A stretch of 64,000 bases of DNA, from NCBI RefSeq assembly GCF_003002055.1, contig NZ_PVZF01000007.1:248001-312000 (forward strand), in the 5' to 3' direction. Numbering within the stretch: the first letter of the stretch is position 1; every line of letters begins with the position of its first letter. Source of the DNA: Kineococcus rhizosphaerae. Its GTDB lineage: Bacteria > Actinomycetota > Actinomycetes > Actinomycetales > Kineococcaceae. The position numbers and the translations under genes were made by a program. The notes below the pieces were generated by a model. The model searched no databases, was not told the origin of the DNA, and was given only the letters and a program-made list of their open reading frames with translations. Positions 2,618 through 60,856 of this stretch are shown piece by piece.

Positions 2618-3187
2618 GTGACCGGAGGATCGTGGCGCCCCCAGCGCGCCGCCGCCCTGACCCTGGTCACCGTCGTCCTCGCCGTCGGCGCCCACGCCGC
2701 CGCCGGGGGGATGCTCCCCTCCCCCTGGGTCCTGCTCGCGCTGACCGTCCCCACGGCCTGCGCGGCCACCGCGCTCACCCGCCGGCGCCGGACGGCCCCC
2801 ACCACGCTGCTGGCCCTGGGCGCCGGGCAGCTCGGTCTCCACGAGGCGCTCGCGCTCGGCGGCGGTGCCTGCACCGCCACCGCGACCGGTCACCACACCG
2901 TCGCGATGGCCTGCGGCGCGACGGCCCACCACGACCCCGGCACGGGGATGCTGCTCGCGCACGTCCTCGCGACGCTGCTGACCGGGCTGCTGCTGGCCCG
3001 CGGCGAACAGCTCCTCGGGGCCGTCCTGGCCCGGCTCGCGTTCGCGTTCCCCCGGCTGCGGGCCACGACCCCGGTCGTGCGCCCCCGGTTGCCCCGTGCC
3101 GCGGAACGCCGGGTCCGACCCCGCCTCGTCGACGCCCGCGTCCCCGCCCGCCGCGGGCCACCGGCGCTCGCGCGCGCGACCGCCTGA
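2618..3187 (+). CDS. Small integral membrane protein with a His/Cys-rich loop
   Basis: A 189-aa protein with about four hydrophobic segments (roughly residues 10-30, 33-55, 62-82 and 107-130). Between the third and fourth is a loop rich in possible metal ligands: HEALALGGGAC and HHTVAMACGATAHHD. The C-terminal tail is Arg/Pro-rich and probably cytoplasmic. It precedes the CopD-CtaG fusion by 70 nt on the same strand. The loop and the neighbour suggest a role in copper handling, but the family is not recognised. Start GTG 2618 is supported by TACCCT 6 nt upstream. Confidence 0.7.
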   Translation: MTGGSWRPQRAAALTLVTVVLAVGAHAAAGGMLPSPWVLLALTVPTACAATALTRRRRTAPTTLLALGAGQLGLHEALALGGGACTATATGHHTVAMACGATAHHDPGTGMLLAHVLATLLTGLLLARGEQLLGAVLARLAFAFPRLRATTPVVRPRLPRAAERRVRPRLVDARVPARRGPPALARATA

Positions 3188-3257
3188 CGGGACCCGACCC
3201 GCCGAGGGAGTCGCACGCGCCCACCCGCGCCACGACCACCCTCGACGGAAGAACCCC

Positions 3258-5222
3258 GTGGACCACTCCCCGAAGCTCCTCGTCCTCGCCGTGCCCGGCG
3301 CCCTCCTCGCCGTCGTCGGCGGCCTCGCCCTGACGGGCTCGCTGGCCGCGACCGACCTGCTCGACCCCGGACCGTTCGTCCGGTACGCCCTGCCCCTGGC
3401 CCGCACCCTCCACGACCTCGCGGCCGCCCTCACCGTCGGGCTCCTCGTCCTGACGGCCGTCGCCCTGCCCGGCGGCCGGGCCGTCGAGGGCGAGGCCCGG
3501 ACCGTGCGCACCGCCGCCCTGCGGTACGCCGCGGTCGCCGCCACGACCTGGCTCGCCGCCGCCGCCGCGACCCTCGTCCTCACCTACGCCGACGTCGCCG
3601 GGACACCGCTGGGCAGCCCCGGGTTCACGTCCCAGTTCTGGTTCTTCCTCACCGACCTCGACCTCGGCCGGTCCCTGCTCGCCTCCGCGCTCGGCGTGCT
3701 GGTCGTCGCCGTCGGGTGCTGGCTCGTGCGCAGCCTGACGACGGTCGGGATCCTCGCCGCGCTGTCGCTGGCCGCGCTGCTCCCGCTGGGCCTGGCCGGT
3801 CACGCGGCCGGCACGAACGACCACTCCCTCGCCGTCGACGGTCTCGTCCTGCACCTGCTCGGCGTGTGCGTGTGGGCCGGCGGGCTGGCCGCGCTGGTCC
3901 TCCTGCACCGCCGGCTCGGGCGGCACCTGGGCGACGTGGCGACCCGCTACTCCTGGCTCGCCGGGGCGTGCTTCGCGGTCGTCGCGCTCTCCGGCGTCGT
4001 CAACGCCTGGCTGCGCGTCGGGTCCTGGGACGGGCTGCTGACCCGGTACGGGGCGCTGGTCGTCGTCAAGTCCGCGGCGCTCGTCGTCCTCGGGGTCGCG
4101 GGCTGGCGCCAGCGCACGCACGTCCTGCCCCGCCTGGCCGAGCGGCCCGGGGCCTTCGTGCGGCTGGCCGTCACCGAGGTGGTCGTCATGGGTGTCACGT
4201 TCGGCGCCTCGGTGGCCCTGTCCCGCAGCGCGCCGCCCGTCCCGCAGACCGCGTCGGGCCCCGGCGCCCAGCTGGAGGCGCTGCTCGGTTTCCCGCCGCC
4301 GCCGGCGTTCTCCCCCGCGAAGCTGCTCACCGAGTGGCACCTCGCGTCGTTCTGGTTCCTCGTCGCCGCCACCCTCGCGGGGTCCTACGTCGCCGGGGTC
4401 CGGCGCCTGCGCCGCCGCGGGGACCGCTGGCCCGTGCTGTCGACCGTCTCCTGGCTGGCCGGCTGCGCGCTGCTGGTCTACCTGACCAGCGGCGCCCCCG
4501 CGCTCTACGGCAAGCTCACGTTCTCCGGCCACATGGTGCAGCACATGAGCCTGACGATGGTCGTCCCGCCGCTGCTCGTCCTCGGCGCACCGATGACGCT
4601 CGCGCTGCGCGCGGCGACCGCCCGGCACGACGGTTCCCGCGGTCTGCGGGAGTGGGTGCTCGCGCTGACGGCCTCGCCGTGGCTGCGGTTCTTCGGCAAC
4701 CCCGTCGTCGCGGCCGTCGTGTTCGCGGGCAGCCTCTACGCTTTTTACTACACCGGGTTGTTCCAGCAGGCGCTGCTCACGCACACCGGTCACACGCTGA
4801 TGACGGCGCACTTCCTGCTGTCGGGGTACGTGTTCTGCTGGGTGCTCGTGGGCCGCGATCCCGGCCCGCACCGGCCGCCGTACCCGCTGCGGTTGCTGCT
4901 GCTGCTCGTCACCCTGTCGTTCCACGCGTTCTTCGGCGTGGCGCTCATGTCGAGCTCGCAGGTCCTCGCCCCCGCCTGGTGGCACGCCCTCGGGCGCACC
5001 GACGACGCCGCCCTGCTCGCCGACCAGCACGTCGGCGGCGGGGTCGCCTGGGGCACCGGCGACATCCCCACCGCCGTCCTCGCGATCGGGCTGGCCCTGG
5101 CCTGGGCCCGTTCGGACGAGCGCGAGGCGCGGCGGAAGGACCGCAAGGGCGACCGCGACGGCGACGCCGAGCTCGCCGCCTACAACGAGCGGCTCGCCGC
5201 CCTGGCCCGCCGCGAGGAGTGA
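3258..5222 (+). CDS. CopD-CtaG fusion membrane protein (copper / cytochrome oxidase assembly)
   Basis: A 654-aa polytopic protein. The first ~300 residues resemble the CopD copper-resistance domain, with His-bearing helices such as [13 protein letters not shown] and a VLHLLGVCVWAGGL helix. Residues ~340-610 match caa3_CtaG, with GHMVQHM near residue 424 and HTLMTAHFLLSGYVF. CtaG-type proteins help deliver copper to cytochrome c oxidase, and CopD is linked to copper uptake. The tail is charged (Lys/Arg/Asp repeats). Start GTG 3258 was chosen because the first transmembrane helix follows at once. The same fusion is common in actinobacteria. It ends 4 nt from the convergent lipoprotein gene. Confidence 0.9.
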   Translation: MDHSPKLLVLAVPGALLAVVGGLALTGSLAATDLLDPGPFVRYALPLARTLHDLAAALTVGLLVLTAVALPGGRAVEGEARTVRTAALRYAAVAATTWLAAAAATLVLTYADVAGTPLGSPGFTSQFWFFLTDLDLGRSLLASALGVLVVAVGCWLVRSLTTVGILAALSLAALLPLGLAGHAAGTNDHSLAVDGLVLHLLGVCVWAGGLAALVLLHRRLGRHLGDVATRYSWLAGACFAVVALSGVVNAWLRVGSWDGLLTRYGALVVVKSAALVVLGVAGWRQRTHVLPRLAERPGAFVRLAVTEVVVMGVTFGASVALSRSAPPVPQTASGPGAQLEALLGFPPPPAFSPAKLLTEWHLASFWFLVAATLAGSYVAGVRRLRRRGDRWPVLSTVSWLAGCALLVYLTSGAPALYGKLTFSGHMVQHMSLTMVVPPLLVLGAPMTLALRAATARHDGSRGLREWVLALTASPWLRFFGNPVVAAVVFAGSLYAFYYTGLFQQALLTHTGHTLMTAHFLLSGYVFCWVLVGRDPGPHRPPYPLRLLLLLVTLSFHAFFGVALMSSSQVLAPAWWHALGRTDDAALLADQHVGGGVAWGTGDIPTAVLAIGLALAWARSDEREARRKDRKGDRDGDAELAAYNERLAALARREE

Positions 5223-49597: not shown

Positions 49598-50254
49598 TCA
49601 GGCCAGCAACCCGTTCTCGTAGGCGAACACGACGATCTGCACGCGGTCGCGCAGCCCGAGCTTGCGCAGGATCGACCCGACGTGCGTCTTGACGGTCGAC
49701 TCCGACGCGAACACCTCGGCCCCGATCTCGGCGTTCGACAACCCCCGCGCGACGGCGTCGAACACCTCCTTCTCCTTCGCCGTCAGAGTCCCGAACTCCT
49801 TCGGCGGCGGCGTCGGGGTCGTCAGGCTGTGCTCCAGCAGGTTCGTCAGGTTCCCGGGCGACAGGACGGCGTTGCCCGCGTGGACGGTGCGGATCGCGTC
49901 GGCCAGCTGCGCGGGCGTGGTGTCCTTGAGCAGGAAACCGCTGGCTCCGTGGCGGATCGCCGTCGCGGCGCGGTCGTCGAGGTCGAACGTCGTGAGCACG
50001 ACGACGCGCACGGGGTTCGCGCGGCGGGCCACCCGGTCGGGCAGGAACACCTGCCGGGTCGCCTCGACGCCGTCCATCTCGGGCATCCGCAGGTCCATGA
50101 GGACGACGTCGGGCTGCAGCTCCTCGACGAGCCGCACGCCCTCCAGGCCGTCGGCGGCGTCCCCGACGACCTCGATGCCGTCCTGGGCGTCGAGGATCAC
50201 CTTCACCCCGGCGCGGAACAGGTCCTGGTCGTCGACGAGGAGGACGCGGATCAC
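49598..50254 (-). CDS. NarL/LuxR-type response regulator
   Basis: A 218-aa regulator. The receiver domain (residues ~1-125) holds VDDQD and the phosphoacceptor Asp in VVLMDLRMPEMDG. The LuxR helix-turn-helix is LTAKEKEVFDAVARGLSNAEIGAEVFASESTVKTHV (~148-183). It is coupled to the sensor kinase gene by GTGA and ends the operon vanX-alr-ddl-HK-RR. It probably autoregulates that operon and may act on murF. Confidence 0.93.
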   Translation of the reverse strand: MIRVLLVDDQDLFRAGVKVILDAQDGIEVVGDAADGLEGVRLVEELQPDVVLMDLRMPEMDGVEATRQVFLPDRVARRANPVRVVVLTTFDLDDRAATAIRHGASGFLLKDTTPAQLADAIRTVHAGNAVLSPGNLTNLLEHSLTTPTPPPKEFGTLTAKEKEVFDAVARGLSNAEIGAEVFASESTVKTHVGSILRKLGLRDRVQIVVFAYENGLLA

Positions 50255-51471
50255 GACCGCACCGGGACGCTGGCCGTGATCGAGAACCGCGCCCCGTCCA
50301 CGGCGACCTGCGCCCAGCCCCCCACGGCCTCCAGCCGGCGGCGCATGCCGTCCAGGCCGCGTCCCCCGCCGGGGCCCGAGGGCGACCCGTCGACCGGGAT
50401 CCCGTTCGTCACCGACAACTCCAGTTCCTCGTGCGGTCCTGCGGGCCAGCGTTGCACGACGTCGACGGGCACGTCGCGGTCGCCGTGCTTGAGCGCGTTG
50501 GTCAGCATCTCCTGCAGCACCCGGTAGGCGACGGCGGCCAGTTCCGGCGGCAGCGGCCGCGCAGGGCCGCTGGAGTGCGACCGGACGGTGAAACCCGTCG
50601 ACCCCGCACCGTCGATGAGCGCCTGCAACCGCCCCGGCGGGACGGGGGTGGCCGACAGGACGCCCTGGACGTCCTGCAGCGAGGACCGTGCCGTGCCGGC
50701 GATCGTCCGCAGGGTCGCCTTGAGCGCGGTGGGGTCGGCGTCGGGCAGGAACTGCCCCGACTCCGCCTGGGCCAGGATGACGGCCAGGGAGTGCCCGACG
50801 ACGTCGTGGACGTCGTGGGCCATCCGGGTCTGCTCGTCGCGCAGCCTCGCGATCTCGTAGGCCTGCGCGGTCTCGCGGTGGGCGCGCGCCGACTCCTGCT
50901 CGGCCTCGACGCGGGCGCGCCGCGAGACGGCCGCGTTCCCGGCGAACCGTAGCGCCAGCCCGCCCAGCCAGGCCGCGGCCAGCGTCAGCAGCGCGATCGG
51001 CAGCCCGGCCAGCAGGGAGACGCCGACGCGGTCCAGGACGTCGCGCAGGCCCTGCACGACGAGAATCCCCGGCGAGTACTGCCCGTAGACCAGCAGGACC
51101 CCGCCGACGAGGACCCCCAGGGGGATCGAGAGCCCGCTGAGCGCGAGGACCCACCGGCTGCCCCAGCGCGCCCCGGCGAACGCGACGTAGGCCAGCAGGA
51201 GCTGGGTCAGCAGCAGCGGCAGACCGGTCGCGAACTGCGCGACCCCCGTCAGCCACACGAGGGCCAGCGCGACGGCGGGCAGCGGCCGGGCGATCGCCGT
51301 GGTCAGGGCGACGAGCAGGACGAACAGGACGCTGCCGCTCTCCCCGCCCCACGTCGTGCGGACCGCGACCTCGGCCAGCCCGAGGCCCGCGGTGAGCAGG
51401 CCCACGACGATGTCGGGCGAGCGTTCGCGCCAGCGGAGCGGGGTTCCCACGTCGTCCAGCGTAGGGGTCAC
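50251..51471 (-). CDS. Sensor histidine kinase (HisKA_3 type)
   Basis: A 406-aa membrane kinase. About five to six hydrophobic segments in residues ~20-190 form the sensor. A coiled linker leads to the dimerisation/phosphoacceptor box DVHDVVGHSLAVILAQAESG (His in VHD) and then a HATPase domain (EMLTNALKHGDRDVPVDV and GGGRGLDGMRRRLEAVGG). Its start overlaps the ddl stop and its end overlaps the response regulator start, each by 4 nt. Van systems usually use an OmpR-type pair, so this NarL-type pair is different. Confidence 0.93.
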   Translation of the reverse strand: MTPTLDDVGTPLRWRERSPDIVVGLLTAGLGLAEVAVRTTWGGESGSVLFVLLVALTTAIARPLPAVALALVWLTGVAQFATGLPLLLTQLLLAYVAFAGARWGSRWVLALSGLSIPLGVLVGGVLLVYGQYSPGILVVQGLRDVLDRVGVSLLAGLPIALLTLAAAWLGGLALRFAGNAAVSRRARVEAEQESARAHRETAQAYEIARLRDEQTRMAHDVHDVVGHSLAVILAQAESGQFLPDADPTALKATLRTIAGTARSSLQDVQGVLSATPVPPGRLQALIDGAGSTGFTVRSHSSGPARPLPPELAAVAYRVLQEMLTNALKHGDRDVPVDVVQRWPAGPHEELELSVTNGIPVDGSPSGPGGGRGLDGMRRRLEAVGGWAQVAVDGARFSITASVPVRS

Positions 51472-52424
51472 GACGGGAGGGCGTCGGTGACCAGCAGCGC
51501 CAACAGGTCCTCGAAGCCGAGGCCGCCGGCGGAGAACATCAGCGGGGCCGCCGAGTGCTCCGTCATGCCCGGCGTGCTGTTGACCTCGTTGAGGACGACG
51601 CCGTCGGCGGTGAGGAAGAAGTCGGCCCGGGCCAGGCCCCGGCAGCCGAGGGCGTCGTACACGCGCACGGCGGCGTCCACGAGCGCGGCGTGCTCGACGT
51701 CGGAGATCTCCGCGGGCAGCCGGACGTCGGGGTGCCCGGAGTACTTGGCCTCGTGGTCGAAGATCCCGTCGTGGACGACCTCCTCGACGGGTGCGGTGGT
51801 GCGCGTCCCGTCGGGCCGTCCCAGGACGGCGACGCAGAACTCGCGGCCGACGACGAACTCCTCGACGAGGACCCGGTCGTCGAGCTCGCGGGCGGTCCGC
51901 AGCGCGGCGTCGAACTCGCCGGGGTCGCGGACCAGCGAGACCCCCAGGCTCGACCCGGCCGTGGCGGGTTTCACCACGACCGGGCCGGTCCACGGCACCT
52001 GCTCCCCCGGACCCACGAGGGTTCCCCGGGCCGTCCGGACCCCCACGGCCTCGGCCACGAGCTTCGTCGTCCACTTGTCCATCGCCACCGCGCCGGCCGC
52101 GGTGCCCGACCCGACGTAGGGCACCCCGGCGAGTTCGCACAGGGCCGCCAGCGTCCCGTCCTCCCCGAGGGTCCCGTGCAGGACGGGGAACACGACGTCG
52201 CAGCTCTGCAGGACGCGGACGGCCCCCGCGAGGCCGAGGGGGCGCAGTTCCTCGTCGCGCCACTCGCCGTCGCGCCCGATCGTCAGCCGGACCACGTCGT
52301 GGCCGGGTTCGAGCCCGTCGGCGACGGCGGCCGCCGAGGCCAGCGACACGTCGTGCTCGCAGTTCCTGCCACCCCCGACCACGGCCACCCTGGTCGTCCT
52401 CGTCCTCGTGCTCGTCGTCGTCAT
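51468..52424 (-). CDS. ddl: D-alanine-D-alanine ligase family ATP-grasp enzyme
   Basis: A 318-aa ATP-grasp ligase. EHDVSLASAAAV near the start, MDKWTTKLVAEAVG, the ATP-site VVVKPATAGSSLGV and the Mg site GLARADFFLTADGVVLNEVNSTPGMT are all present. The omega loop reads FDHEAKYSG, with the AKY of D-Ala-D-Ala (or D-Ser) ligases, not the His form of D-lactate ligases. It is likely a second ligase making D-Ala-D-Ala or D-Ala-D-Ser. It is coupled to alr upstream and to the kinase downstream. Confidence 0.9.
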   Translation of the reverse strand: MTTTSTRTRTTRVAVVGGGRNCEHDVSLASAAAVADGLEPGHDVVRLTIGRDGEWRDEELRPLGLAGAVRVLQSCDVVFPVLHGTLGEDGTLAALCELAGVPYVGSGTAAGAVAMDKWTTKLVAEAVGVRTARGTLVGPGEQVPWTGPVVVKPATAGSSLGVSLVRDPGEFDAALRTARELDDRVLVEEFVVGREFCVAVLGRPDGTRTTAPVEEVVHDGIFDHEAKYSGHPDVRLPAEISDVEHAALVDAAVRVYDALGCRGLARADFFLTADGVVLNEVNSTPGMTEHSAAPLMFSAGGLGFEDLLALLVTDALPS

Positions 52425-53509
52425 CTCGTGCTCCTGTCCACCCGGGGCCCCAGCCCCACCAGCAGTTCCGCTTCCAGCCGTCCGCTCCACCGGGCCCAGT
52501 CGGCCAGGCTCGGACCGCCCTCGCCGAAGAACGTCACGGGTTCCCCGACGAGCAGTCCCGGCCGGGGTTCGGGTCCGAGGTCGACGACCGTCTGGTCCAT
52601 CGACACCCGGCCCACGACGGGGCACCGCCGGTCCCCCAGCCCGACCTGGCCGGGAGTTCCGCGCGGGACCCCGTCGGCGTACCCGACGGGCACGAGCCCG
52701 AGGACCGTGTCGCGCGGGGCCGTCCAGGCGTGGCCGTACCCGACGGGAGTTCCCGCCGGCACCTTGCGGACCCCCGACAGCGGCGCCCGGAACGTCACCG
52801 CCGGGCGCAGCGCCGCCCCGCCGAGGGGGTCGATCCCGAGGAGGCCGGCCCCGACGCGGACGAGGTCGTGGTGGTCGGCGGGGTTCGCGAGGGTTCCCGC
52901 CGTCGCGGCGAGGTGGACGGTGCGCGGTCGCAGCCCGGCCAGCCGGGCGATGCGCAGTCCTTCGTCGAACCGTCTGCGCTGCAACTCGTTCACCGGGTCG
53001 GCGGGCCGGTCGGCGCAGGCCAGGTGGCTCATCACCCCGATGACCTCGATCCGTCCGGACCGCTCGGCGTGGGCCGCCTCCCCGCACAGCAGCGACCAGT
53101 CCGCGCGTGGGCAGCCGTCGCGGGCCATGCCCGTGTCGAGGTGCAGGTGGACGCGGGCGCCGCGGGGCACCGCGAGCAGGTGCGCCGGGCTCGGGACGGC
53201 GATCTCGACCCCCGCGGCGACGGCCGGGCCGAACTCCGTCAACGGGGAGTTCAGCCAGCTCAGGACCGGGGCGGTGATCCCCGCGGCCCGCAGCTCCAGC
53301 GCCTCCGCCACGCTCGTGACCCCGACGCTGCGCGCCCCGTTCGCCAGGGCGGTGCGGGCCAGGGCGGTCCCGTCGGTCCCGTACCCGTCGGCCTTCACGA
53401 CGGCCATGAGGTCCGCGGACGTGGCGGCCGCGATCGTGCGCGTGTTGTGGGCGACGGCGTCGAGGTCGAGTTCCAGGACGGGCCCGGCGACCCGGGTCAG
53501 GAGCTTCAC
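52421..53509 (-). CDS. alr: Alanine racemase (PLP fold type III)
   Basis: A 362-aa racemase. The PLP Lys is K39 in AVVKADGYGTDG. The second catalytic residue is Tyr in VGYADGVPR, and VSMDQTVVDLG is the carbamate/dimer region. It makes D-Ala (a serine racemase as in VanT is possible but less likely without a membrane domain). GTG 53509 overlaps the vanX-like stop and its own stop overlaps the ddl start. It is probably a paralogue of the housekeeping alr. Confidence 0.9.
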   Translation of the reverse strand: MKLLTRVAGPVLELDLDAVAHNTRTIAAATSADLMAVVKADGYGTDGTALARTALANGARSVGVTSVAEALELRAAGITAPVLSWLNSPLTEFGPAVAAGVEIAVPSPAHLLAVPRGARVHLHLDTGMARDGCPRADWSLLCGEAAHAERSGRIEVIGVMSHLACADRPADPVNELQRRRFDEGLRIARLAGLRPRTVHLAATAGTLANPADHHDLVRVGAGLLGIDPLGGAALRPAVTFRAPLSGVRKVPAGTPVGYGHAWTAPRDTVLGLVPVGYADGVPRGTPGQVGLGDRRCPVVGRVSMDQTVVDLGPEPRPGLLVGEPVTFFGEGGPSLADWARWSGRLEAELLVGLGPRVDRSTR

Positions 53510-54111
53510 GGCAGCGGTCCGTACAACGCGGCGGGTGCGCCGGTGACGACGGCCCAGTAGCGGTCGCCGAAGCTCCAGTGCCACCACTCGGTCGGGTAGT
53601 TCACGAGTCCGGCCGCGCTCAGGGTGCGCACCAGCAGGTCCCGGTCCCGGCGGGCCGCGGCGGGCAGTTCCGCGGCGGTGAAGCACGCCCCGGCGGAGTC
53701 CTCGGGCGTCGCGTCGACCGGGGTCCCCAGGTCGAGTTCCGCGCCGTCGGCGTCGACGAGGGTCAGGTCCACCGCTGCGCCCGCCACGTGCGGGGCGACG
53801 TCCACGGGGGCCACGAACCGGCTCGTCAGGTGCAGGAGCTCCTCGGCGCCGGCACCGGGGTGCGCCGCGCGCACGACCTCGCGGTAGGCGGCGACGATCG
53901 TCTGCTGGGCGGCCAGGGGCCGGTGCCCCTCGACGACCCGCAGGGCCAGACCGTCCGGCAGCAGGTGCTGGGCCAGGTCCAGGCGCGCGGCGAGGCCGGC
54001 CCGCACCCGGGCGCGGGCGGGGCCGAACGCGGCGGGCAGTTCCCGCAGGGGTTCACCGGTGTCCCGGACCGGGACCGCGGCCACGGTGGGATCGCTCATG
54101 AGCAGGGTCAC
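53506..54111 (-). CDS. vanX: D-alanyl-D-alanine dipeptidase, VanX/DdpX family
   Basis: A 201-aa zinc peptidase of family M15D. Catalytic features are R64 (EGHRPLAAQ), H108 and D115 (APHVAGAAVDL, with Pro for the usual Ser), and E175 with H178 (TEWWHWSFGDRYWA). These match the VanX residue set, so it should hydrolyse D-Ala-D-Ala. Cytoplasmic: no signal peptide. First gene of a five-gene coupled operon. GTG 54111 is 6 nt after CACCCT; ATG 54099 is an alternative. Confidence 0.88.
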   Translation of the reverse strand: MTLLMSDPTVAAVPVRDTGEPLRELPAAFGPARARVRAGLAARLDLAQHLLPDGLALRVVEGHRPLAAQQTIVAAYREVVRAAHPGAGAEELLHLTSRFVAPVDVAPHVAGAAVDLTLVDADGAELDLGTPVDATPEDSAGACFTAAELPAAARRDRDLLVRTLSAAGLVNYPTEWWHWSFGDRYWAVVTGAPAALYGPLP

Positions 54112-54218
54112 CGTCCCAGGGTGCGGAACGCGGGGTCGCGGGCAGATCCCCCTCAGGTACCGGCGCGCTGTCCCCGGGGTGGAGGCGCACCGGCCCCGCG
54201 GGCGGGCACCGTCGTGCT

Positions 54219-55505
54219 GTGCTCGACACGACCCTGCAGCAGATCGCCGCGATCACCGGTGGCCGCGCGACCGGGGACGTCCGCGTCCTCGGCGCCGCCT
54301 ACCTCGACAGCCGCGACCCCGTCCCCGACGGGTTGTTCGTCGCCCTCGCGGGAGGACGCGCCGACGGGCACGACCACGTCGGGACGGCCCGGGCCGTCCT
54401 CGGGACCCGCCCGACCGCCCGGCCCACCGTCGTCGTCCCCGACGTCGTCGTGGCGCTGGGCCGCCTCGCCCGGCACGTCGTCGCGACCCGGGACACCCGG
54501 GTGATCGCGGTGACGGGCTCGCACGGCAAGACGTCGGTGAAGGAGTTCCTCGCCGCGGTCCTGCCCGACGCGACCGCCACGCGCGGCAACCAGAACAACG
54601 AGCTCGGCGTCCCCCTCACCGCCCTGCGGTTGCCCCCCACCGGCGGCGACCTCGTCCTGGAGGTGGGCGCGCGCGCCGTCGGGCACCTGACGTACCTGGC
54701 CGGGATCGCGCCGCCGCGGATCAGCGCCGTGACCGCCCTCGGGCTCTCGCACGTGGGCCGGTTCGGTTCCCCGGAACTCCTGGCGCGGGCCAAGGGCGAA
54801 CTCGTCGAGGCGACGTCCGACCTCGTCGTCCTGAACGCCGACGACCCGCGGGTGCTGGCCATGGCCGGGCGCACGTGGGCGCGGGTGGTGACGTTCGGGG
54901 CCCGCGGGGACGTCGCGACCTCCGGCGTCCGCCTCGACGCCGAGGGGCGCGCGAGCTTCCGGCTGCACTCCCCCGCGGGTCCCGCCGACGTGCGGTTGCG
55001 GGTCGTGGGGGGTCACCAGGTCGCGAACGCCGCGTGCGCGGCCGCGGTGGCCCTCGGCGCCGGTGTCCCGCTGGCGCAGGTCGTCGCGGGTCTGGAGCGG
55101 ACGAGCGGACCCGGCGAGCACCGCCTGCAGCGCCTCGTGCGCGCGCACGACGGCGGGGTCCTGCTCGACGACTGCTACAACGCCTCCCCCGCCTCGATGG
55201 CGGCGGCGTTCGCGACGCTGGCCGCCGTCGCGCGGGCGGGCCACCGCGTCGCGGCTCTCGGGCCGGTGCGCGAACTCGGCGCGCTGCACGACCGCGCACA
55301 CCGCGCCGTCGCGGCCGCCGCCCGCCACCACGGGGTCGAGGTCGTCGCGGTCGGTCCCGACGCCGAACCCCTCGGCGGGACGTGGGTCCCGGACGTCGCG
55401 GCCGCCGCGGGGTTCCTGCGGGAACGCCTCACGGCCGCCGACGCCCTGCTCGTCAAGGCCTCCCGCCCCTCGCGCCTCGAACGCCTCGTCGCCGCCCTCA
55501 CCTGA
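54219..55505 (+). CDS. murF: MurF-like UDP-N-acetylmuramoyl-tripeptide-D-Ala-D-X ligase
   Basis: A 428-aa Mur ligase. The N-terminal domain carries YLDSRDPVPDGLFVALAGGRADGHD. The P-loop is TGSHGKTSVKEF (residues ~99-110), then GNQNNELGVPLTALR, and the C-terminal domain holds LLDDCYNASPASM, the MurF hallmark. It adds the terminal dipeptide to the peptidoglycan precursor. It lies outside a dcw cluster, so it is a second MurF that may prefer an altered dipeptide. GTG 54219 is 6 nt after CACCGT; divergent from vanX. Confidence 0.9.
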   Translation: MLDTTLQQIAAITGGRATGDVRVLGAAYLDSRDPVPDGLFVALAGGRADGHDHVGTARAVLGTRPTARPTVVVPDVVVALGRLARHVVATRDTRVIAVTGSHGKTSVKEFLAAVLPDATATRGNQNNELGVPLTALRLPPTGGDLVLEVGARAVGHLTYLAGIAPPRISAVTALGLSHVGRFGSPELLARAKGELVEATSDLVVLNADDPRVLAMAGRTWARVVTFGARGDVATSGVRLDAEGRASFRLHSPAGPADVRLRVVGGHQVANAACAAAVALGAGVPLAQVVAGLERTSGPGEHRLQRLVRAHDGGVLLDDCYNASPASMAAAFATLAAVARAGHRVAALGPVRELGALHDRAHRAVAAAARHHGVEVVAVGPDAEPLGGTWVPDVAAAAGFLRERLTAADALLVKASRPSRLERLVAALT

Positions 55506-55606
55506 CCCCGGCGATCAAGGAACTCTCCACCGCGATCAAGGACGATTCGAGGCAGAGGCAGCCGGGCCGTCCTTGATCGCGGTGGAGAGTTCCTTGATCG
55601 CCGGGG
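55506..55606. repeat. 38-bp perfect inverted repeat with internal GCGATCAAGGA duplications
   Basis: Arms 55506-55543 and 55569-55606 are perfect complements across a 25-nt loop. Each arm contains two copies of GCGATCAAGGA. It lies right after the murF stop, on the same strand as the next gene, and likely ends the murF transcript. It differs from the palindrome family at 49088 and 56587. A partial match (GGCGATCAAGG) occurs at 20772. Confidence 0.85.
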
Positions 55607-55644
55607 GTGGGGGCGGTCTGGGTCGGTGCTGCCAGGATGACCCG

Positions 55645-59029: not shown

Positions 59030-60856
59030 GTGGGAACCACCGTCACCGGTCCCGGGACGCCGGACGCCGACCTCGCGCGCCAGCTGACCGCGCTGCGCGA
59101 CCAGCTCGACCGGCAGAGCGCGACCGCCGCCGCCCTGCGCGAGCAGGAGGAACGGTTCCGCCTCGCCTTCGACGTGTCCCTCGTCGGGATGGCCATCGAG
59201 AGCCTCGACCCCTACGAACCCGGCCGCATCCTGCGGGTCAACGAGGAGTTCTGCCACCTCCTGGGCCGCACCGCCGACGACCTCGTGGGCCGCGGGACCC
59301 CCGACTTCGCCGTCCCCGACGACAGGGCGGGGATCACCGACGTGCTGGGGGCCTTCGCCCGCGGCGAACTCGAACGGTGGGAGGGGGAACGCCGGTACCT
59401 GCGCCCCGACGGCGAGGAGGTCCGGGCCCACGTCCGCAAGGGGCTGGTCCACACCCAGCGGGGGGCGGACTACCTGGTGAGCCACTTCGAGGACGTCACC
59501 GAACGGCACCGGGCCGAGCAGGAACTGCTGCACCTCGCCCTGCACGACCAGCTCACCGGGCTGCCGAACCGCCACCTGCTCGACGACCACCTGGGCGCGG
59601 CCCTGGCCCGGGCCCGGCGGGACGGCACCCACGTCGCGCTGCTGTTCCTCGACCTCGACGACTTCAAGGACGTCAACGACGTCCTGGGGCACCAGGCCGG
59701 CGACGCGGTCCTCGTCACCGTCGCCCACCGCGTCCGGGACGCCATCCGCGAGGCCGACACCGCCGCCCGGTACGGCGGCGACGAGTTCGTCGTGGTGTGC
59801 GAGACCCTGCACGACGCCGCCGAGGCCGAGGTGGTCGCCCAGCGCCTCATCGACGCCGTCTCGACCCCGCTGCCGCTGGCCGGCCGCACGATCGTGCCGC
59901 GCACCAGCGTCGGCATCACCGTGTGCGGTCCCGGGGAGCCGCGCACCGCCGAGGTGCTGCTGAGCGAGGCCGACGCGGCCCTGTACGAGGCCAAGCTCAG
60001 CGGCAAGAACCAGCGGGCGCGCTTCACCCACGCCCTGCGGACCGCCGCGAACCGGCGCCTCGACGTCGAGGAGGACCTGCGCGCCGCGCTCGGCGACGAC
60101 GAGCTCCGCGTCCACTACCAGCCCATCGTCGACCTGCGCGACGGGGCCGTCATCGCCGCCGAGGCGCTCGTGCGCTGGCAGCACCCCGTCCGCGGGCTGC
60201 TCGCCCCCGTCGAGTTCATCGACGTGGCGGAGCAGAGCGACCTCATCGCCGACCTGGGCGAGTGGGTCCTGCGGGAGGCCGGCGCGTGCCTGGCGCGCTG
60301 GCAGCGCGAGGGCCAGGAGGTGCGGACCCCCGCGCTGGTCGCGGTCGTCCCGCCCCCGCACCGGCTCGCCGTGTCCGTGAACGCGTCGGTCCGCCAGGTC
60401 AGCAGCGGACGCCTGCGCCGGTCCGTGGAGGCCGTGCTCGCCGACAACGGCCTGCTGCCCGGGGAGCTGCACATCGAGATCACCGAGACCCAGTTCATGT
60501 CGGCGGCCCCGGCGATCCAGCGCGAGATGGCGGCCCTGAGCGACCTGGGCGTGGGGTTGTCGCTCGACGACTTCGGGACCGGCTACTCGTCGCTGGCGTA
60601 CCTCAAGCGCCTGCCGTTCAACTGCGTGAAGCTCGACCGCTCCTACGTGTCGGGCATCGGCGTGAACCCCGGGGACGAAGCCCTCGTGGACGCCGTCCTC
60701 GCCCTGGCCGGCTCCCTGGGCCTGCACACGGTGGCCGAGGGGGTCGAGACCCCGGCCCAGGAGCGTTACCTGCGCGAGCGCGGGTGCGGGTACGCGCAGG
60801 GGTACCTGTACTCCCCGCCGGTCCTGGGGACGCGCCCGCCCGAACGGGCGAGCTGA
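59030..60856 (+). CDS. PAS-GGDEF-EAL cyclic-di-GMP signalling protein
   Basis: A 608-aa protein. A coiled coil (~10-45) leads to a PAS domain (~50-160), then GGDEF (~165-330, active-site motif YGGDEF, so a likely active cyclase), then EAL (~350-600) with EALVRW, ITETQF, DDFGTGYSSL and KLDRSYV. Both catalytic motifs are intact, so it may make or break c-di-GMP. Cytoplasmic, no membrane segment. It stands alone with its own promoter. Confidence 0.95.
   Translation: MGTTVTGPGTPDADLARQLTALRDQLDRQSATAAALREQEERFRLAFDVSLVGMAIESLDPYEPGRILRVNEEFCHLLGRTADDLVGRGTPDFAVPDDRAGITDVLGAFARGELERWEGERRYLRPDGEEVRAHVRKGLVHTQRGADYLVSHFEDVTERHRAEQELLHLALHDQLTGLPNRHLLDDHLGAALARARRDGTHVALLFLDLDDFKDVNDVLGHQAGDAVLVTVAHRVRDAIREADTAARYGGDEFVVVCETLHDAAEAEVVAQRLIDAVSTPLPLAGRTIVPRTSVGITVCGPGEPRTAEVLLSEADAALYEAKLSGKNQRARFTHALRTAANRRLDVEEDLRAALGDDELRVHYQPIVDLRDGAVIAAEALVRWQHPVRGLLAPVEFIDVAEQSDLIADLGEWVLREAGACLARWQREGQEVRTPALVAVVPPPHRLAVSVNASVRQVSSGRLRRSVEAVLADNGLLPGELHIEITETQFMSAAPAIQREMAALSDLGVGLSLDDFGTGYSSLAYLKRLPFNCVKLDRSYVSGIGVNPGDEALVDAVLALAGSLGLHTVAEGVETPAQERYLRERGCGYAQGYLYSPPVLGTRPPERAS

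Follow-up and report, generated by a model that had tools for sequence, protein, structure and literature searches.

A recurrent vanX-alr-ddl cassette with NarL-type regulators, a possible self-regulated precursor switch in actinobacteria

The VanRS regulators of van operons are of the OmpR type. In VanT, a serine racemase is fused to an AT3 domain, whose role is called unsettled in the consulted parts of two reports (PMC9558356, PMC12423673). For the pdx operon of Micromonosporales, D-Ala-D-Ser-like remodelling has been proposed by the authors of a survey of actinobacterial glycopeptide resistance, the consulted parts of which record one vanRSY set in twelve Kineosporiales genomes and resistance genes in 16 of 593 Propionibacteriales (PMC8698665). 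Here we analysed a cell-wall locus in a 64,000-nt stretch of Kineococcus rhizosphaerae DNA (assembly GCF_003002055.1, contig NZ_PVZF01000007.1, 248,001-312,000; hereafter the window, to which positions refer unless another locus or contig is given). The locus is a cassette of genes for a VanX-like dipeptidase (vanX), an alanine-racemase-family enzyme (alr), a D-Ala-D-X ligase (ddl), a histidine kinase and a NarL-type response regulator. With slightly better than even confidence, we think that it encodes a self-regulated precursor switch, which would remove D-Ala-D-Ala and install an altered, D-Ala-D-Ser-like dipeptide.

The five genes form, in that order, an operon on the minus strand with four successive overlaps of 4 nt each (vanX/alr, alr/ddl, ddl/kinase and kinase/regulator), and a second, divergent murF is separated by 107 nt from the start codon of vanX (54111). 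Coordinates and strands agree with the claims of an earlier model-made reading of the letters and their open reading frames (the sequence-only reading). Pfam and NCBIfam family calls were concordant for all six genes. The host genome (5.61 Mb, 63 contigs, 99.99% complete) holds a further alr on contig 4, a further murF and a ddl-like gene on contig 2, and another ddl-like gene on contig 13; the case that the sequence-only reading had itself named against a special system, that these were the sole alr, ddl and murF of the genome, therefore does not apply. The cassette is a second, dedicated set beside the housekeeping alr, ddl and murF, and its vanX product is the single PF01427 protein of the whole genome.

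A contig scan of 84,980 species returned 306 vanX relatives, the best 80 of which were taken as loci. In 45 of these best 80, vanX, alr and ddl followed one another in order; 31 of the 45 also had the kinase and the regulator, 20 had an AT3 gene and one had murF. The search for the same gene order elsewhere, which had been proposed as a check, thus found it repeatedly, and because the order recurs in 45 of the best 80 loci, the vanX-alr-ddl arrangement is more than chance. At the remaining 35 loci the surroundings of vanX differed, as with the ddl-vanX order of Micromonospora. Carriers of the cassette include Nocardioides, Jiangella, Actinopolymorpha, Kineosporia, Frankia, Oerskovia, Aeromicrobium, Tessaracoccus, Lentzea, Actinokineospora and Actinopolyspora. 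Within the family, two of 12 genomes examined had the cassette; in a class sample a vanX match was present in 107 of 394 genomes, and among the matches listed, alr adjoined vanX at 20 of 30 loci, the window included. Fifteen carrier genomes were hand-picked from the family and class matches, and every one of them contained alr exactly twice and at least one further ddl.

Comparison of the window with the second carrier of the family (L020) by blastn gave a match from 49607 to 55498, regulator through murF, at 73% identity; beyond the cassette, only short matches were left, one near 27.8 kb and two, inside a GGDEF-EAL gene, near 59.5 and 60.6 kb. Since the match spans regulator to murF and then gives way to short matches, the six genes look like a unit set in two different surroundings. 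Trees were built from 24 of the 47 cassette rows, with the host housekeeping protein entered twice in each and the truncated L083 racemase left out of the racemase tree. Cassette racemases (24) were split from housekeeping racemases (16) with support 100/100, though the bootstrap was not fully settled, and cassette ligases (24) from housekeeping ligases (17) with support 90/73, a split found in 93% of bootstrap trees. The window and L020 paired in both trees.

Alanine racemases confine their substrate to alanine by two tyrosines, one of which is Tyr354 in Geobacillus and Tyr364 in M. tuberculosis, and this gate position is occupied by Asn in VanT and by Ala in Bar, a racemase of broad specificity, according to the consulted parts of one study (PMC3485190). 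A Tyr354Asn exchange converts an alanine racemase into an alanine/serine racemase, as stated in the consulted parts of another (PMC5025676). The cassette racemase (52421-53509, minus strand; 362 amino acids) has both the N and C domains of alanine racemases and scored 227 bits with TIGR00492 (cut-off 168). Upon alignment to the M. tuberculosis structure 1xfc, its Ala347 (codon 52469-52471), counted along the alignment, stood opposite Tyr364. The tyrosine was replaced in 46 of 47 aligned cassette racemases, by His in 43, Ala in two and Asn in one, with a gap in the remaining row. Among the 15 carrier genomes, the gate residue of the cassette racemase was His in 13 and Ala in two, while that of the housekeeping racemase was Tyr in 12 and Trp in three.

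The cassette ligase was likewise set apart from the other ligases of the same genomes. It lies at 51468-52424 on the minus strand (318 amino acids), has the Ddl N and C domains and scored 271.9 bits with TIGR01205 (cut-off 245.65). Its residue 292 (codon 51549-51551), which follows the conserved Ser of the C-terminal loop and which we take to equal Leu282 of E. coli DdlB and Arg322 of VanC2, is Ala, and its omega-loop residue 222 is Phe. Position 292 was Gln in 44, Ala in two and Gly in one of the 47 cassette ligases. For the 15 genomes, the cassette ligase was compared with one other ligase per genome, namely that returned as a locus: position 292 was Gln (13) or Ala (two) in the cassette ligases and Met (12), Leu (one) or Arg (two) in the others. 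The two Arg-bearing ligases resemble VanA, which a search confirmed for L175. At position 222, all 15 cassette ligases have Phe, which VanG has too, and 13 of the 15 others have Tyr. The window and L020 had Ala at both the racemase gate and ligase position 292, but co-change of the two sites was not strict, as L075 combined Asn with Gln and L104 His with Gly. The sequence-only reading had relied instead on the AKY omega loop, from which, together with the lack of VanH, it concluded that the product was D-Ala-D-Ala or D-Ala-D-Ser and not D-lactate. This motif proved not to be diagnostic: just 17 of the 47 cassette ligases retain its Ala, and its Lys-Tyr is common to Ddl and solved VanG. Position 347 of the racemase and positions 222 and 292 of the ligase are more informative than AKY. 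They favour the altered dipeptide of that reading's "remade or altered dipeptide" and speak against remade D-Ala-D-Ala.

Some genomes had further ligases in addition to that of the cassette. The third ddl-like gene of the host genome G000 (L016, contig 13, 7499-8443) is 36% identical to the cassette ligase, and similar matches of 35-41% occurred in several other carrier genomes. Two Jiangella-like genomes, G155 and G165 (L175, L179), hold the cassette plus a VanA-like ligase elsewhere in the genome, and therefore two switching systems may coexist there.

A gene for an AT3 (Acyl_transf_3) membrane protein lay directly after ddl at 20 of the 80 loci, every one of them a cassette; the copy at L051 matched PF01757 with an E value of 1.5e-33. 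Among the 15 carrier genomes, AT3 followed ddl in three. Short AT3 fragments, one of them with an internal stop, were present right behind the cassette ddl of G155 (contig 31, 28317-28460) and G185 (contig 1, 3586903-3587034), a hint that the gene may have been lost in these two genomes.

The first gene of the operon (53506-54111, minus strand) would encode a D-Ala-D-Ala dipeptidase of the M15 group with 201 amino acids (PF01427, E value 1e-14), and its GTG start agrees with the start of its relatives. The catalytic residues R64, H108, D115, E175 and H178, listed as kept by the sequence-only reading, were all present, and each was invariant across the 47 aligned cassette proteins. The best of five AlphaFold models had a predicted local distance difference test (pLDDT) score of 88.5 from 26 sequences, and the other four scored 73-82. 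In a Foldseek search against solved structures, the model pointed to VanX (1r44) first, with an E value of 3.7e-8, followed by VanXYc and VanYB, with a predicted likeness to 1r44 that reached a TM-score of just 0.55 (root-mean-square deviation 11.4). The NCBIfam VanX equivalog model gave 31.5 of 320 bits and its cut-off was not reached. By this NCBIfam score, the protein is distant from clinical VanX.

The regulators are of the NarL type and not of the OmpR type of VanRS, as had been claimed and as the domain matches bear out: the kinase (50251-51471, minus strand) matched PF07730 (HisKA_3) and PF02518 (HATPase_c), and the response regulator (49598-50254, minus strand) PF00072 (Response_reg) and PF00196 (GerE), with an MDLRMP receiver motif at residue 53. 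By a hydropathy script, the kinase has some five hydrophobic segments and lacks a long outside domain, and sensing within the membrane is therefore likely. Regulator identity was 69-84% across high-scoring loci with the two-component pair. Upstream of vanX, we found a 40-base-pair (bp) element of two palindrome-like boxes with centres about 21 bp apart, a candidate operator that in the window lies between vanX and murF (54142-54181, minus strand) and in which the exact box CGGTACCTGAGGGGGA occupies 54147-54162. We trained a motif on 23 upstream regions and scored it on 10 further loci, held out from training and picked after all upstream sequences had been viewed; nine of these loci outscored every one of 100 shuffles, and for the tenth (L109) one shuffle in 100 equalled the score. 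The window scored 25.0 bits compared to a maximum of 1.6 bits in 100 shuffles. The exact 16-base box occurred in nine copies in nine of the 15 whole carrier genomes, each just upstream of the cassette vanX, with no match in the other six genomes, and the reversed control pattern was found once; in the host genome CGGTACCTGAGGGGGA is single. A pattern allowing up to two mismatches was present in 32 of 33 two-component cassettes, in none of 13 cassettes without a close regulator match and in none of 35 other vanX loci, although it was derived from the same 33 cassettes, and the held-out test is the fair one. These results suggest that the regulator has one main target, its own operon, and in the window the boxes could serve both vanX and murF. 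In Lentzea and Actinopolyspora, the cassettes L079-L081, L089, L091, L092 and L111 had the order vanX-alr-ddl-AT3 and lacked kinase, regulator and operator boxes; therefore, some other control must act there.

From the observed gene content, recurrence, second copies, residue changes and motif, we infer a course of events in which the membrane kinase would sense an envelope signal and phosphorylate the NarL-type regulator, which would then bind the two boxes before vanX and switch on its own operon, plus murF where present. VanX would destroy normal D-Ala-D-Ala, the altered racemase would provide a different D-amino acid (D-serine being the likeliest), the altered ligase would couple it to D-Ala, and MurF would add the new dipeptide to the precursor. 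Antibiotics that recognise D-Ala-D-Ala would then be expected to bind less well. We consider a switch to a D-Ala-D-X dipeptide likely, with D-serine as the best guess for X and protection from D-Ala-D-Ala-binding agents as the most likely purpose.

Several results weigh against D-serine, or against an altered product altogether. The housekeeping racemase of the host itself has Trp at the gate, and this position is thus not fixed. The cassette racemase is separate with no AT3 fusion, and vanT models scored far under their cut-offs; four cassette AT3 proteins gave no match to the vanT model at an E value of 0.01, and the host genome had 0 AT3 matches, which rules out AT3 as an essential partner there. 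The Protein Data Bank entries for VanG and VanA show Arg at position 292, unlike the Gln or Ala of the cassette. The cassette ligase passed the general D-Ala-D-Ala ligase model and failed the D-Ala-D-Ser and D-Ala-D-Lac models, with 217.3 of 495 bits for VanG, 195.3 of 520 for the general D-Ala-D-Ser model and 195.4 of 550 for the D-Ala-D-Lac model. Furthermore, all 15 cassette ligases retain the equivalent of DdlB Tyr216 and, by our own mapping, that of Ser150, and the consulted parts of one report take retention of these residues as a mark of D-Ala-D-Ala ligases (PMC7691350). VanG also carries the Tyr216 equivalent, however.

The same switch could instead install a second residue other than serine, with the polar or enlarged pockets taking another D-amino acid and giving a new terminal dipeptide. 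The pockets are His plus Gln in most carriers and Ala plus Ala in the window and L020, Bar also has Ala in its racemase site, and at the ligase position the cassette enzymes differ both from VanG and VanA, which have Arg, and from Ddl, which has Met or Leu. The AT3 neighbourhood and Phe222, in contrast, point to the VanT/VanG kind, and the imperfect co-change in L075 and L104 also counts against this alternative, which we regard as rather unlikely. Less credible still is ordinary turnover or repair of D-Ala-D-Ala under envelope stress, in which VanX would recycle the dipeptide and the extra enzymes would rebuild it. The kept Tyr216 fits such a role, as does the best NCBIfam match of the VanX-like protein, the PRK10178 dipeptidase model, although at 71.4 of 176 bits it is below cut-off; yet the scheme amounts to a futile cycle, and it leaves unexplained the clean split between cassette and other enzymes at the racemase and ligase sites in the same genomes. 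Spare, drug-tolerant targets induced upon attack by D-cycloserine-like racemase and ligase inhibitors would account for a second alr and ddl under one regulator and for active-site changes that could reduce inhibitor binding, but we consider them improbable, as VanX would destroy the very product to be saved and fits vancomycin-type logic better.

The second murF (54219-55505, plus strand; 428 amino acids) has the Mur ligase M and C domains and scored 308 bits with TIGR01143 (cut-off 288.6). It was present in the window, in L020 and in one of the 45 cassettes of the best-80 scan, and murF is usually no part of the cassette. Just 3' of it, at 55487-55625, lies a long inverted repeat with 58-nt arms that are 84% complementary and 23 nt apart, which contains repeated GATCAAGGA units and is a possible terminator. 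A mobile repeat was ruled out, as the exact 30-base unit had no further copy in the host genome and none in 11 relatives. The GGDEF-EAL gene of the window (59030-60856, plus strand) is about 4 kb from the cassette; at L020, DNA similar to it (2623-3863) adjoins the regulator, probably just reflecting a common domain. An anti-phage role was rejected, PADLOC having returned weak matches to the regulator and nothing else, and no plasmid copy was found at 60% identity or above among 599 plasmid records matching the ligase.

If the favoured precursor switch is correct, the cassette would represent another natural way for actinobacteria to hide the D-Ala-D-Ala target, one that uses separate enzymes and another class of sensor, and a parallel, or possible relative, of D-Ala-D-Ser resistance. 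It would also offer a setting for probing the function of AT3 beside racemases, the question left unsettled in the consulted parts of the VanT reports (PMC9558356, PMC12423673). More doubtful is the stronger proposal that the cassettes form a widespread unnamed operon class with a dipeptide that is not D-Ala-D-Ala, D-Ala-D-Lac or D-Ala-D-Ser and a dedicated NarL-type pair that mainly or only targets its own operon.

The sequence-only reading had suggested that the system was undescribed, and no description of the cassette was found among the papers listed in the literature searches, judged mostly by title and start of abstract. The actinobacterial survey seems to have passed it over: vanX-alr-ddl with NarL-type regulators was not found in the consulted parts, and the word Nocardioides is absent from the main text, the figures and supplements being outside the comparison (PMC8698665). 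The pdx operon shares a Ddl-like ligase, a VanX-like dipeptidase and regulators with the cassette, but in the same consulted parts has a PALP dehydratase-like enzyme where the cassette has an Alr-fold racemase, and VanRS-like regulators (PMC8698665); the Micromonospora loci of our scan, with ddl before vanX, also differ from the cassette. A set of vanRSY, racemase and ddl in Allonocardiopsis, Murinocardiopsis and some Geodermatophilales likewise combines a van-type peptidase and regulators with an adjacent racemase and ddl, but is described in those parts as rare, with a VanY carboxypeptidase, not VanX, and with VanRS regulators (PMC8698665). With vanHAX, the cassette has in common a VanX-like dipeptidase, an alternative ligase, its own sensor and sometimes a second murF. 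However, its ligase is not VanA-like and it is without VanH: as had been claimed, a scan of 15 open reading frames of the window found no VanH-type dehydrogenase, and the cassette is not vanHAX. The VanC/VanE/VanG/VanL/VanN systems combine, as the cassette does, a racemase, a Ddl-family ligase, an M15 peptidase and a two-component system, with AT3 fused to the racemase in VanT and beside it in some cassettes, and with the omega-loop Phe in VanG. In contrast to these systems, the cassette has a separate, soluble racemase, VanX and not VanXY, NarL-type and not OmpR-type regulators, Gln or Ala and not Arg in the ligase loop, and model scores far under the cut-offs. Thus, the cassette would work most like VanC/VanG remodelling, yet by the model tests it is no member of that group; it is a compact, apparently self-regulated set, spread over many soil actinobacteria, that resembles but does not match the known vancomycin-resistance systems.

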